A stretch of 64,000 nucleotides of DNA from Lachnospiraceae bacterium (lineage in GTDB: Bacteria; Bacillota; Clostridia; Lachnospirales; Lachnospiraceae). Below the pieces are notes generated by a model, which was given only the letters and a program-made list of their open reading frames with translations, ran no database searches and was not told the DNA's origin. The translations under genes and the position numbers were made by a program. Where the stretch lies: assembly GCA_910574195.1 (NCBI GenBank), contig CAJTBF010000010.1, positions 62,001-126,000 of the forward strand, in the 5' to 3' direction. The first letter of the stretch is position 1; every line of letters begins with the position of its first letter. Shown one piece after another: positions 8,731 through 21,957 of the stretch.

Positions 8731-8847
8731 TTTCACAAAAAAAAATATAAAATTTGTGAAAAAAGGAAAAAAGGAGAAAGTTTTGTAAAAAGTATTGAAA
8801 TAAACAAGTTAAACGAATATAATACACTATATCATTGATTTGTGAAA
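8731..8847. promoter_or_regulatory. Three copies of TTTGTGAAA around the rightward promoter
   Basis: TTTCACAAA (8731-8739) and TTTGTGAAA (8753-8761) make a perfect 9-bp inverted repeat with a 13-base spacer. A third copy, TTTGTGAAA, lies at 8839-8847, just after the expected start of transcription from the promoter at 8795-8823. The arrangement suggests a regulator binding upstream and downstream of the promoter of the frl-like operon. Which regulator binds is unknown. Confidence 0.5.
8795..8823 (+). promoter_or_regulatory. Sigma-A-type promoter, frl-like operon
   Basis: TTGAAA (8795-8800), 17-base spacer, perfect TATAAT (8818-8823). It is placed 72 bases upstream of the ATG of the APC permease, with transcription expected near 8830. 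Confidence 0.75.
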
Positions 8848-8895
8848 ACTTATCAATTTTACAAATTCTATCTAAAAAAGAAAGGAGAGTGTGTT

Positions 8896-10302
8896 ATGGC
8901 AGATAATAACACGAACGTCACCCCGCAGGCAACAGGAGGAGAAAAGGAATTAACCCGTAGACTTGGGTTGATGTCGGCGATCGTATTAGGTGTAGGTACG
9001 ACAGTTGGATCAGGTATCTTTACATCCGTAGGGGAGGTTGCAGGGACCGCAGGAACACCTATCTTTACGATTTTGGCTTTCCTGATCGGCGGTTTGATCA
9101 TGATTCCGCAGAACCTGTGTTACACGGAGCTGATGACGGCTTATCCGGAAGACGGACTTTTCATCGTGTATTTCCGTGAAGCAGGATGGAATTTCCTGTC
9201 CTTCTTCGGCGGCTGGTCCTGTTTCTGGGCGACTGACCCGGTAGGTATTGCAATTATGGCAATTGCCGTTGGTAATTATCTTGCATACTTTACAGGTTGG
9301 ACGACCATGACAGTTCGTATCGTATCCGTTGTTTTGATCGTGCTCTTTACAGCATTGCATATGATCAAGATGGACGCAGGTGCAAAGTTCCAGAATGTGA
9401 TTACCAGTATCAAGATCGTTCCGTTTATTCTTCTTGTAATTGTTGGTCTGTTCTGTGTATCCGGCGGAAACTTCAGCGCAGCGGCAGTAGAAGGATCCAA
9501 CTCAGGAGCTATGGCTTTGATTCTTGGTATTGCGGCAACGACCTGGTCTTATGACGGTATGCAGACCTGTGGTACAATGGCAGGCGAGATCAAGAACCCG
9601 CATCGGAACCTTCCGATCGCTTTGATTGGTACGGTTATTCTTTGTACTTTGCTTTATACGGGGCTTTCAACAGCAGCAACAGGCCTTTGTGATATTTCCA
9701 TTCTGGCTGCTTCCGACGCGCCGATTGCTACGGCATTTGAGTATGTTCCGTTTATCGGAAAATCTGCAGGAACTATCGCGGCTGTCCTGGCAATCATCGT
9801 GGTAACAGGTTCTCTGTCCTCTTTGATTATGTTCCAGGCGCGTGTGGAGTATAAGGCTGCAACAGAAGGTTTCTGGTGGAAATCCTGGTCAACGGTACAT
9901 CCGGTATGGAAGACGCCTTATGTATCCATGTTATGGCAGAGCGGTTTCGCAATTATCTTTGTATTCTTTGATATCAGTACATTGCTTGGCTACTTTACAT
10001 TGATCTGTCTGATCCGTAATATTCTTTGCTTCTGTACCTGGTTCAAGGTAAGACATAAGAGTAATTACCATCCGACATGGAAAATGCCTGTTGGTCCGTT
10101 GATGGCAGTTCTGGCAATTGTTCCGTCCTGTATCCTGGTTGTAACAACCTTTATCGACAGCCCGGTATTTGGCACGGTTGCGGCAATTGCGGCAATCGGT
10201 TCCGCAATTCCATTCTATTTCTATTTCAAGAAAGCAAATGCGGATATCATCGAAGCAAAAGCAGCGGAGCGTGCAGCGGCAGAGCAGTTGGCAGCAAAAT
10301 AA
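8896..10302 (+). CDS. frlA: APC-superfamily permease resembling the fructoselysine transporter FrlA
   Basis: A 468-residue, about 12-helix amino acid-polyamine-organocation permease. The first helix carries [18 protein letters not shown], followed by [35 protein letters not shown] and [19 protein letters not shown]. From memory these blocks closely parallel E. coli FrlA (GSGIFVSVGEVA, IGGLIVIPQ, MTGEIKNP), which imports fructoselysine and psicoselysine. The ATG at 8896 follows AAAGGAG; an upstream in-frame ATG lacks a site. It is the first gene after the promoter at 8795-8823, and the only transporter encoded between there and 22 kb. That supports the idea that the downstream operon consumes a glycated amino acid or another amino-sugar conjugate. 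A generic amino acid substrate is the main alternative. Confidence 0.78.
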
Positions 10303-10358
10303 AACAGACGCCGTAAGAATGCTAACGTGACAATTTAGTACATTTATAAACGGTATAT

Positions 10359-10402
10359 ACTACCCAATCTTATGGTAAAACATAGAGGTTGGGTAGTTTA
10401 TT
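10359..10402 (+). terminator. Probable intrinsic terminator or attenuator after the permease gene
   Basis: ACTACCCAA and TTGGGTAGT form a 9-bp stem followed by TTATTTTA. It lies between the permease gene and the NagB-like gene. No strong promoter is seen after it, so it may give partial termination that sets a higher level of permease than of the downstream enzymes. Confidence 0.55.
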
Positions 10403-20003: not shown

Positions 20004-20066
20004 GCGGAAAGAGCAAGACAACAAAGAATAGTTGAAAAAATGAAATAATAGCAGGAGGAAAAAGAT

Positions 20067-20897
20067 ATGGCTATGAAAATCTCATTGTTTACGGCGGGCT
20101 TCTCCCTGTATCCGATCGAGCGTGCATTTCAGGCAGCGGCAAAGAACGGGTATGATGGAATTGAGATCGGCGGTTTTCGTCCGCATGCGTATGCACCGGA
20201 TCTGGCAAAGGGAGGCGCGGAGAAGATTCGTCGTCTGTCCAAAGAATACAGACTGCCGATTGTAAGCTACGCACCGGAAAATACAGGTTCTCCATATAGT
20301 CTGATGTTCGCAGATCCGGAAATGAATAAAGAAAGTCTGGAATATTTCAAACTGACATTGGATATGGCGAAGGAAATCGGTTCCCAGTATTGTATGTTCG
20401 CATGCAATCATCCGGGATATGGACGGAACAGAGAAGATGTAAAGAAACTGTTTGTAGAAAATATGCAGATTCTGGCAGAGCATGCAGAAAAAATTGAACA
20501 GACCATCATCCTGGAGACACAGACGCCCTATGAGACGACAATGATTATTACGGCGGACGATGTGCGCTGGGCAATGGATCAGGTAAATTCTCCTTACTTC
20601 AAATGTATGCTGGATCTGGCAGCGCCGTTTACTTATGGAGAGCCGATCAGCGCGTATTTTGATAAGATGGGGAAAGATGTAAAGCATATTCACTTTATTG
20701 ACTGTGAAAAGACCAGTGAAGACCATCTGATTCCGGGCGATGGGGAAATGGATTTCCCGCGTATCGTAAAATATCTGAAAGAGATTGAATATGACGGATA
20801 TCTTTCACTGGAATTGTTCAGCCGCTATGCGAATGAGCCGGATTTTGCGGCAGAGCGTGGATATCAGGCAATCAGAAGCCTTTTAGACGAGAATTAA
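20067..20897 (+). CDS. frlC: FrlC-like fructosamine 3-epimerase (xylose isomerase-like TIM barrel)
   Basis: A 276-residue TIM barrel. From memory it parallels E. coli FrlC strongly: YDGIEIGGFRPHAYAPDL (FrlC YDGIEIWGGRPHAFAPDL), then YAPENTGSPY, TPYETTMIIT, EPISAYFDKMG and HLIPGDGEMDFPRI. FrlC interconverts fructoselysine and psicoselysine using a metal held by Glu, Asp, His and Glu; the matching residues Glu in ILETQTPYE, Asp in MLDLAAPF, His in HIHFIDCE and Glu in LSLELFSR are present. The ATG at 20067 follows AGGAGG. This gene and the FrlA-like permease are the main evidence for an Amadori-compound operon. Confidence 0.82.
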   Translation: MAMKISLFTAGFSLYPIERAFQAAAKNGYDGIEIGGFRPHAYAPDLAKGGAEKIRRLSKEYRLPIVSYAPENTGSPYSLMFADPEMNKESLEYFKLTLDMAKEIGSQYCMFACNHPGYGRNREDVKKLFVENMQILAEHAEKIEQTIILETQTPYETTMIITADDVRWAMDQVNSPYFKCMLDLAAPFTYGEPISAYFDKMGKDVKHIHFIDCEKTSEDHLIPGDGEMDFPRIVKYLKEIEYDGYLSLELFSRYANEPDFAAERGYQAIRSLLDEN

Positions 20898-20994
20898 GAA
20901 AGGTTTTGATTACTCGCCGCAGGAGTTATCAAATTCCTGTAATCGTTTTATGGGGAATGGAACGGTGACAGAATAGAAAAGGAGAAAAAGAAAA

Positions 20995-21957
20995 ATGGGA
21001 AAATTTGGTCCGATTGATGTTATCGTATTGAACAGTCATGGGGTAGGGCAGGTATGTCATATTAAGAGGTTCCCACGCCGTGGAGAGACATTGGAGGCGA
21101 CAAACTGGCATGTAGAAGAGGACGGCGGAAAGGGTGCGACCGTTTCCGTGGCATTGGGACGTCTGGGTGTCAGCACAGGATATATTGGAAAAGTCGGTTA
21201 TGATCCGTGGGGCGACATGGGAGATCAGTGGATGAGCGAATCCGGTGTGGATACCACATATATGTACCGGGATCATTCTGTATCTACCGGGACCGGCCTG
21301 ATTATGATTGAGGAGGACAGCACCAATACAATTGTGGACGGCGACAGTGCCTGTCAGGCTTTGACATGGGAAGAGACACACGATGCCATCGAAGCGATGA
21401 AAGAAGCGAAAGTATTTATTACCGGATTTGGAATGCCTTTCAGAAAGGCTCTGGATGGGGCAAAGATTGCAAAAGAAGAATTCGGTATGCTGACATTATG
21501 TAATGTAAGCCCGCTGCCAAGCGAAGATATGGGTGATCTGAGCTATCTTGACTTTATGGTTCTCAATGATGTGGAAGCAAAGACGTTGTGTGGTTTTGAG
21601 GAAGACTCCAAAGAAGAAATGAGCAAGATTGTAAAACAGCTCAAAGAAAAGTATCACTGCCGGGGTGTGATTGTAACCTGCAATTCAGAAGGAAGTGTGA
21701 TTCTGGACGGGGAAGAATACTGGGAAGTTGCGCCTACACCAGTGAAAGCAGTCGATACCATTGGTGCGGGAGACGGATACCTGGCAGCAGTTGCCGCAAA
21801 TATTGTCTGGGGCAAATCTCTGCGTGAGGCAACGGAGTGGGCAAGCAAATATGCAGCTTACAAAGTAACAAGACAGGGAAGCATGACAAAGAAACCGGGA
21901 TGCGGTTATCCGAATCTGGATGAAGTGAATGAATTCATGAAATCGCTGGAAGCCTGA
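20995..21957 (+). CDS. PfkB-family sugar kinase (ribokinase/FrlD-like), copy 2
   Basis: A 320-residue PfkB kinase, paralogous to 11338-12273: both begin VIVLNSHGVGQ and share GGKG..VSVALGRLG, VGxDPWGD.G and the xTxGAGDGxxAAVxANxVWGK end. The catalytic Asp is in DTIGAGDGYLAAV. It is the last gene of the operon, followed by a perfect 46-bp inverted repeat and an intrinsic terminator. FrlD-type kinases act at C6 of fructosamines. Two related kinases, two SIS proteins and two ROK proteins suggest that the operon processes two conjugates or both a conjugate and the released sugar. Confidence 0.82.
   Translation: MGKFGPIDVIVLNSHGVGQVCHIKRFPRRGETLEATNWHVEEDGGKGATVSVALGRLGVSTGYIGKVGYDPWGDMGDQWMSESGVDTTYMYRDHSVSTGTGLIMIEEDSTNTIVDGDSACQALTWEETHDAIEAMKEAKVFITGFGMPFRKALDGAKIAKEEFGMLTLCNVSPLPSEDMGDLSYLDFMVLNDVEAKTLCGFEEDSKEEMSKIVKQLKEKYHCRGVIVTCNSEGSVILDGEEYWEVAPTPVKAVDTIGAGDGYLAAVAANIVWGKSLREATEWASKYAAYKVTRQGSMTKKPGCGYPNLDEVNEFMKSLEA

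Follow-up and report, generated by a model that had tools for sequence, protein, structure and literature searches.

We analysed a 64,000-nucleotide stretch from a Lachnospiraceae bacterium (GenBank assembly GCA_910574195.1, contig CAJTBF010000010.1, positions 62,001 to 126,000), which we call the window, and in it an operon whose permease and 3-epimerase resemble FrlA and FrlC of the E. coli fructoselysine system. A sequence-only reading of this DNA had described an enlarged fructosamine operon with duplicated kinase, SIS and ROK genes. The list of open reading frames (ORFs) gives 12 ORFs within 8842-21957, all on the + strand, and the Pfam and NCBIfam family names agree with that reading's gene list and starts. 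The genes are as follows:

8896..10302, + strand: FrlA-type APC permease (AA_permease_2); the frame is open from a GTG at 8842, and a Shine-Dalgarno-like stretch stands at the ATG at 8896
10437..11333, + strand: NagB-like protein; the His143 equivalent is Leu
11338..12273, + strand: PfkB1, a ribokinase-like kinase of the PfkB family
12284..13387, + strand: SIS1, a GlmS-isomerase-like double-SIS protein with a retained Glu/His pair
13449..14849, + strand: ROK1, a ROK protein with a C-terminal extension; CxCGxxGC not seen by eye
15028..15840, + strand: SDR oxidoreductase, an accessory gene
15943..16995, + strand: SIS2, the second GlmS-isomerase-like double-SIS protein (Pfam SIS and GlmS models)
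16980..17918, + strand: ROK2, a kinase-type ROK protein; CxCGxxGC motif found by eye
17946..18875, + strand: DapA-like protein with a predicted dihydrodipicolinate synthase (DHDPS) fold; Schiff-base Lys and Tyr retained, GTTGE loop changed to GLAAE
18909..20003, + strand: DUF4432 protein (Pfam DUF4432)
20067..20897, + strand: FrlC-type 3-epimerase (AP_endonuc_2), 42% identical to E. coli FrlC
20995..21957, + strand: PfkB2, a ribokinase-like kinase of the PfkB family and paralogue of PfkB1

The intergenic gaps range from -16 to 178 bases, and Shine-Dalgarno-like stretches precede several starts. Among NCBIfam models, FrlA fits the permease best (396 bits; next model 154, equivalog cut-off 800), and the protein shares 43% identity with E. 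coli FrlA. For the epimerase the best model is FrlC with 282 bits, about 200 more than the next (81) and just short of the cut-off of 305; the FrlC metal ligands, at the positions that we take them to occupy, are retained. Both proteins can thus be assigned to the FrlA and FrlC types, as proposed earlier, though both score under the equivalog cut-offs, and neither groups with a non-fructosamine family. At E<=1e-40, the operon's own permease is the only FrlA-type one found in the window's genome (G000) and in G514, G515 and G516, and a second one exists in G077 (Ohessyouella) and G038. A viral collection scanned with FrlC gave no relative.

The two kinases are of a different type from FrlD. The best kinase model for both is ribokinase, with 182 bits for PfkB1 and 178 bits for PfkB2, under the ribokinase cut-off, and with the FrlD model, whose cut-off is 247, they reach only 70 and 72 bits. 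A kinase tree of 22 rows groups the eight PfkB1 and PfkB2 rows in one clade (100/99) and the five FrlD rows in another (100/99). PfkB1 contains GGKGxN, the catalytic GAGD/AAGD motif and the equivalents of Glu143 and Asn187, and PfkB2 has GGKGAT in place of GGKGxN. Judged by sequence, PfkB1 and PfkB2, which are 52% identical, are a ribokinase-like paralogous pair and not FrlD, and their split predates the spread between two phyla.

Six genomes, from the two phyla Bacillota and Actinomycetota, were found to have the cluster; G000, Ohessyouella and G038 belong to the same family. A pattern-based scan of an 84,980-species collection with SIS2, the count of which is a lower bound, returned at least four loci, one in Ohessyouella blattaphilus (Lachnospiraceae, Bacillota) and three in Atopobiaceae or Olsenella, including Olsenella porci (Atopobiaceae, Actinomycetota). 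SIS2 occurs in 2 of 150 genomes of the family at 1e-20. The NagB-like profile matches 22 of 392 genomes of the order at 1e-40, of which only G000, G077 and G038 exceed 600 bits (the next reaches 186), and the DapA-like profile matches at 1e-50 a single one of 398 genomes of the phylum, the window's own. The plasmids searched with the DapA-like protein gave no match at 1e-30. With the exception of the SDR and the second permeases, the operon proteins of the relatives are 40% (ROK1) to 87% identical to those of the window.

Ohessyouella has the gene order of the window, except that the SDR is absent. The Olsenella porci genes are distributed over divergent units, with a YtcJ-type amidohydrolase between SIS1 and PfkB1, and G515 and G516 are fragmentary, such that genes unseen there may sit on contigs outside those taken. 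The most compact arrangement is found in G038, where 61 bases separate the NagB-like and PfkB1 genes from the DapA-like, DUF4432, FrlC and PfkB2 genes downstream. This contiguous run is devoid of SIS1, ROK1, SDR, SIS2 and ROK2; SIS2 was not found in the G038 genome, and the only match of SIS1 there is a 616-residue frame of GlmS size. Since the SIS/ROK/SDR block is missing in G038, we regard it as dispensable, and the core, as delimited by this comparison, is the permease, the NagB-like protein, the two PfkB kinases, the DapA-like protein, DUF4432 and FrlC. Across the other genomes, identity to the window's core proteins is 54-87%. Outside the core, no SDR gene lies within the operon in the stretches of the relatives, and homologues of the window's SDR stand beside frl-type genes in two Olsenella genomes.

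Genes closer to the E. coli frl system are located elsewhere in the window's genome, where two loci, C10:49109 and C16:64105, encode FrlD-type kinases that exceed the cut-off. Beside the former lies an FrlC of 450 bits (cut-off 305) with 55% identity to E. coli FrlC, and since the window starts at C10:62001, this FrlD-FrlC pair is situated about 20 kb before the operon. Beside the latter lies a SIS protein whose best model is FrlB and which is 26% identical to E. coli FrlB. The kinase tree and these separate FrlD and FrlC genes led us to reject an enlarged canonical frl operon in which PfkB and SIS would act as FrlD and FrlB; the cluster is better read, from gene content and similarity, as a second, rare set beside the frl system. 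The proposed link to glycated-amine metabolism is supported, as every one of the six operon genomes encodes two or more FrlD-type kinases that exceed the cut-off, and several have frl-type genes nearby. Both FrlD genes of Olsenella porci are directly beyond PfkB2, and in Ohessyouella an FrlD-FrlC pair is about 5 kb beyond it. In G038, the FrlD contig has the operon's permease gene at its end, pointing outwards, and the operon contig starts shortly before the NagB-like gene; because of these contig ends, the FrlD genes and the operon are probably neighbours there as well. An FrlD-type kinase occurs in 12 of the 150 family-sample genomes, the three known operon genomes among them. Two further family members, G080 and G082, have an frl-type cluster composed of an FrlA-type permease (542 bits in G080), an FrlB-like SIS protein, FrlD and a GntR pair, with FrlC in one of them; the 16-17 kb taken around these clusters contain none of the operon's own genes, and elsewhere in these two genomes only SIS2 was searched.

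The operon might instead degrade the same fructoselysine as the frl system with redundant enzymes. The permease and epimerase types fit this idea, and as no other FrlA-type permease was found in the genome, that of the operon may also supply FrlD and the FrlB-like protein. However, the kinases and SIS proteins of the operon are not orthologues of FrlD and FrlB, and they stay distinct across two phyla while FrlD-type genes are kept alongside, which makes redundancy improbable.

The FrlD genes themselves fall into two subtypes (stretches L026:13107-13901 and L027:12103-12903) that recur as a pair in 6/6 operon genomes. One subtype adjoins FrlC and a PF04909 amidohydrolase in the stretches read, and its sugar-site motif is TGN, not GGN, in the two proteins aligned; this TGN-type subtype suggests a second frl-like branch. 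A YtcJ-type (PF07969) amidohydrolase also stands beside frl-type genes (stretches L027:14352-15893 and L016:15801-17483), and its role may be to release conjugates from N-acyl or peptide forms.

In both SIS proteins of the operon, Pfam recognises a single SIS stretch. The term double-SIS is nevertheless fair, as GlmS models (93 bits for SIS1 and 62 bits for SIS2) align residues 6-353 of 369 and 5-338 of 350, nearly the whole of both. Neither protein matches the FrlB model at 0.001, and neither gives a BLAST match to E. coli FrlB at 1e-3; the FrlB test is harsh, because the FrlB-like protein beside FrlD in the same genome itself reaches no more than 74 bits of the 430 required. A third SIS protein, SIS3 (stretch L011:10704-11795), lies directly after PfkB2 in Ohessyouella and after ROK2 in three Atopobiaceae, and no counterpart was seen in the compared stretches of the window's genome. 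SIS1, SIS2 and SIS3 contain a Glu and a His spaced by 16 residues, as in E. coli FrlB, and we take this Glu to be the equivalent of FraB Glu214. FraB E214A is reported to be catalytically inactive (PMC10100877). No BLAST match at 1e-3 exists between SIS1 and SIS2, and ROK1 and ROK2 are only 28% identical; these pairs are therefore distant family members, which rules out a recent duplication, so that the word duplicated holds for the kinases and fails for the SIS and ROK genes.

SIS2 neighbours ROK2 in each of the five genomes with both genes, and SIS1 neighbours ROK1 in the four genomes in which the two were seen; ROK2 matches structures and models of glucokinase and of N-acetylglucosamine/N-acetylmannosamine (GlcNAc/ManNAc) kinase. 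These pairings would suit a combined Amadori and Heyns system, in which PfkB kinases serve ketose conjugates, ROK kinases serve aldose (glucosamine-like) conjugates such as glucoselysine, and each SIS protein deglycates one conjugate, as a permease-and-kinase analogue of gfrABCDEF. According to the text of PMC12675984, GfrE and GfrF are two deglycases, for glucoselysine and fructoselysine, respectively, with the figure legend giving the reverse. However, the likeness to GfrE and GfrF is one of description and not of sequence, the zinc motif was not seen in ROK1, a ROK protein could equally be regulatory or a glucokinase, and the SIS/ROK block is not the core, because it is missing in G038. We hold such a combined system to be possible yet doubtful, and compatible, as an account of the dispensable block, with a second glycated-amine system.

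The NagB-like protein, which belongs to the core, scores 66 bits with the NCBIfam NagB model against a cut-off of 237, with similarity over about 240 residues, and matches nothing in Pfam at 0.001. In NagB, His143 opens the sugar ring and an Asp shuttles the proton. The Asp of the MDE motif and the Glu of the (N/D)E motif are retained in three aligned orthologues, and the His of the NGH motif is replaced by Leu in all six operon genomes. His143 of E. coli NagB is catalytic according to PMC4008608. In a survey of 43 loci, of which two lacked a long frame and one was the operon's own gene, the NGH His is present in 40/40 of the other NagB homologues counted. Among distant NagB-like proteins, a ROK-type gene is adjacent in 4 of 19 short loci, and two longer stretches around such proteins contained nothing else of the operon.

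The DapA-like protein, also of the core, shows a comparable loss. Its structure model has the DHDPS fold (mean pLDDT 77, low confidence at 200-218), and the best Foldseek matches are DHDPS with a TM of about 0.83. The Schiff-base Lys and the Tyr are retained in 5/5 orthologues, all of which contain GLAAE or GYAGE where GTTGE is expected and miss the arginine of the NPR motif. Among 30 surveyed family members, 29 were readable at the loop: 26 of these have GTTGE, and the others have GSTGE (1), GSNGE (1) and SSCGE (1), while the NPR arginine is present in 28/30. The survey leans to true DapA, because the best-scoring members were taken.

These changes raise the possibility of a retro-aldol route, which could be part of the second glycated-amine system, in which the DapA-like protein would form its Schiff base with the C2 ketone of a 1-amino-ketose instead of an alpha-keto acid. 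Its substrate would be the conjugate after phosphorylation and C3 epimerisation, and its products would be a glyceraldehyde phosphate and an N-dihydroxyacetonyl amine; the latter would then be phosphorylated by a kinase, and the NagB-like protein, needing no ring opening for a triose, would release the amine. The predicted DHDPS fold with Lys and Tyr kept and with keto-acid loop and NPR Arg lost in all five orthologues favours such chemistry, as does the place of the protein in the core that survives the loss of the SIS and ROK genes. However, DapA binds the carboxylate partly by its main chain, such that the loop change leaves alpha-keto acids possible, the motif survey is made up of best-scoring members that are mostly true DapA, and one literature search returned no paper on such a route by title. 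We therefore regard this route as unlikely.

The family-level likeness of DapA, ROK and NagB had also led to the idea of a branch for sialic-acid-like sugars, in which the DapA-like protein would be a sialate lyase, ROK a ManNAc kinase and NagB a deaminase, and FrlA and FrlC would be coincidental neighbours. The sialate lyase models give the DapA-like protein only 50-57 bits against cut-offs of 281-382, and Pfam and NCBIfam find no NagA- or NanE-type gene among the 12 operon genes. Moreover, contig C16 of the same genome encodes a NagB that passes the cut-off (C16:71349-72095, about 6.5 kb from the C16 FrlD gene; the match crosses one stop codon). This very improbable reading, and with it that of plain amino-sugar catabolism, was rejected on the absent NagA/NanE-type genes and the lost hallmark residues, namely the catalytic His of the NagB-like protein and the GTTGE loop of the DapA-like protein.

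We lean towards a second catabolic system for a glycated amine, an Amadori-type conjugate, that operates beside the frl-type system, and the gene set with its own importer and altered enzymes probably consumes a related conjugate on a different sugar. From similarity and gene context we infer its reactions and substrate, and the roles of the DapA-like, DUF4432 and ROK proteins. The conjugate would be imported by the FrlA-type permease, and its C3 epimers would be interconverted by the FrlC-type epimerase; the DUF4432 protein, which we presume to be aldose-1-epimerase-like, may equilibrate the ring forms. PfkB1 and PfkB2 would phosphorylate the terminal hydroxyl of two different species, and the putative deglycases SIS1, SIS2 and the NagB-like protein would split the phosphorylated conjugates into sugar phosphate and amine. 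With its isomerising Asp kept and its ring-opening His lost, the NagB-like protein would act on a phosphosugar conjugate in open-chain form. Ring closure is impossible for a 1-amino-ketopentose 5-phosphate, and the two kinases are nearest to ribokinase; for these reasons a pentose-derived Amadori compound fits best, and the substrate is possibly of this kind. The earlier idea of a substrate beyond those of the known frl systems gains support.

Several points weigh against this interpretation. The FrlA-type and FrlC-type identities leave the sugar unfixed, both scores being under the equivalog cut-offs, and psicose and 5-keto-gluconate epimerases are among the relatives of FrlC. In the kinase tree, deep nodes are weak and branches long, and PfkB1 and PfkB2 are only 29-30% identical to E. 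coli RbsK; both have Gly in the alignment at what we take to be RbsK N14 and D16, and PfkB2 also lacks the presumed N46 and E143. The neighbouring SIS protein called FrlB-like reaches merely 74 bits against the FrlB cut-off of 430. The 150-genome sample was searched for FrlD and SIS2, and only about 28 of its genomes were also searched for the NagB-like core, on account of which the hypergeometric value of 4e-4 for the co-occurrence of FrlD and the operon is not to be relied on; the FrlD base rate comes from the family sample only, with Atopobiaceae left out. The pentose idea depends on one lost His and the ribokinase resemblance, and a simple deglycation route has no need of a DapA-like protein.

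Compared with E. coli frlABCDR, which handles fructoselysine and psicoselysine, the operon shares the FrlA-type permease (43%), the FrlC-type epimerase (42%) and the PfkB and SIS folds, whereas its kinases are ribokinase-like, its SIS1 and SIS2 match GlmS models in place of FrlB, and it adds the NagB-like, DapA-like, DUF4432, ROK and SDR proteins without a regulator among the 12 genes. The two deglycases of Salmonella gfrABCDEF (fructoselysine/glucoselysine) would, by description, parallel SIS1 and SIS2. In contrast, uptake in gfr proceeds via a mannose-family phosphotransferase system (PTS; PMC12675984), and the operon relies on a permease and kinases, with no PTS gene among its 12 genes by Pfam and NCBIfam. 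The Salmonella fra system for fructose-asparagine differs in using another transporter and an asparaginase. Its likeness, again by description, is to FraB, a deglycase with an essential Glu (PMC10100877). Of the single enzymes, glucosamine-6-phosphate deaminase NagB shares the MDE Asp and (N/D)E Glu with the operon protein, which has Leu for the NGH His; the superfamily of DHDPS, N-acetylneuraminate lyase and KDG aldolase shares the fold, Schiff-base Lys and Tyr with the DapA-like protein, which has lost the loop and NPR Arg. RbsK shares GGKGxN and the Glu143 and Asn187 equivalents with PfkB1, and differs from the operon kinases in their Gly at N14/D16 and their scores under the cut-off.

A promoter-like sequence, TTGAAA-17-TATAAT (11 of 12 bases), is located at 8795-8823 on the + strand, with ACAAGTT embedded between the hexamers. 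The promoter match alone is weak, because the scan gave 29 promoter-like sites versus 23 in shuffles. Nearly the same promoter sequence precedes the Ohessyouella permease gene, likewise with ACAAGTT between the hexamers, and ACAAGTT also occurs upstream of the permease gene in Olsenella porci and G515. The window contains four ACAAGTT sites, three of them in the 423-base gap between the FGGY and permease genes; three or more were found in 2/4000 Markov copies of this gap. The element, picked post hoc from the permease promoters, is present in 12/43 upstream regions versus 0.9 expected, one G515 site between SIS1 and SIS2 being counted for both genes. The regions that bear it include those before the frlB-like (G516), frlD (Ohessyouella) and GntR (G515) genes, and it is absent from the four regions before frl-type genes of the window's genome. 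Motif discovery in 41 upstream regions yielded AT-rich, promoter- or Shine-Dalgarno-like text (log-likelihood 77 vs 52-70 for six Markov-random sets, which had fewer seeds), which was not used as evidence. Pfam and NCBIfam find no regulator among the 12 operon genes, and Rfam gives nothing on the window at gathering thresholds. The features that flank the operon are:

6931..8472, - strand: divergent FGGY kinase (xylulokinase model 288 bits, cut-off 380)
8501..8523, no strand: palindrome ACTTGTATTAAATCTATACAAGT, before the divergent FGGY gene
21968..22017, no strand: perfect 22-bp hairpin (inverted repeat) after PfkB2; a T run does not follow

A homologue of the FGGY kinase is present in the stretches of 4/6 operon genomes. 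Upstream lies a sugar island (G000 C10:36000-70999 and window 1-8472; several genes named by eye) with transketolase-like halves, several FGGY kinases, a ribulose-phosphate 3-epimerase-like protein, three class II aldolases, a BtpA-family protein, two GntR-type genes and a CoA-disulfide-reductase-like protein. Parts of this island recur beside the operon in Ohessyouella, where the transketolase-like genes were not seen. Downstream, an 859-residue frame at 24117-26696 of the window resembles a glycyl radical enzyme by eye.

Heated food also contains conjugates of sugars other than glucose. As far as we are aware, and in PMC12675984 and PMC4697335, the glycated amino acids whose breakdown by bacteria has been described are mainly the glucose-derived fructoselysine, glucoselysine and fructose-asparagine. 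Such an operon is not named in the titles or abstract starts of the papers listed by the literature searches, weak evidence of absence given that most subscription journals are outside this coverage. We tentatively suggest that the operon could encode an undescribed pathway for non-glucose (e.g., pentose-derived) Amadori compounds, in which a NagB-fold protein, its ring-opening His lost, would deglycate a phosphosugar conjugate in open-chain form, and a DapA-fold Schiff-base enzyme devoid of the keto-acid loop would act on the ketose-amine. For the bacterial use of such compounds, the cluster supplies concrete proteins, a natural deletion marks out its minimal core, and it is carried by the named strains Ohessyouella blattaphilus PAL227 and Olsenella porci CA-Schmier-601-WT-1. 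NagB and DapA would here be two folds that have seemingly moved to new chemistry via the loss of their hallmark residues.

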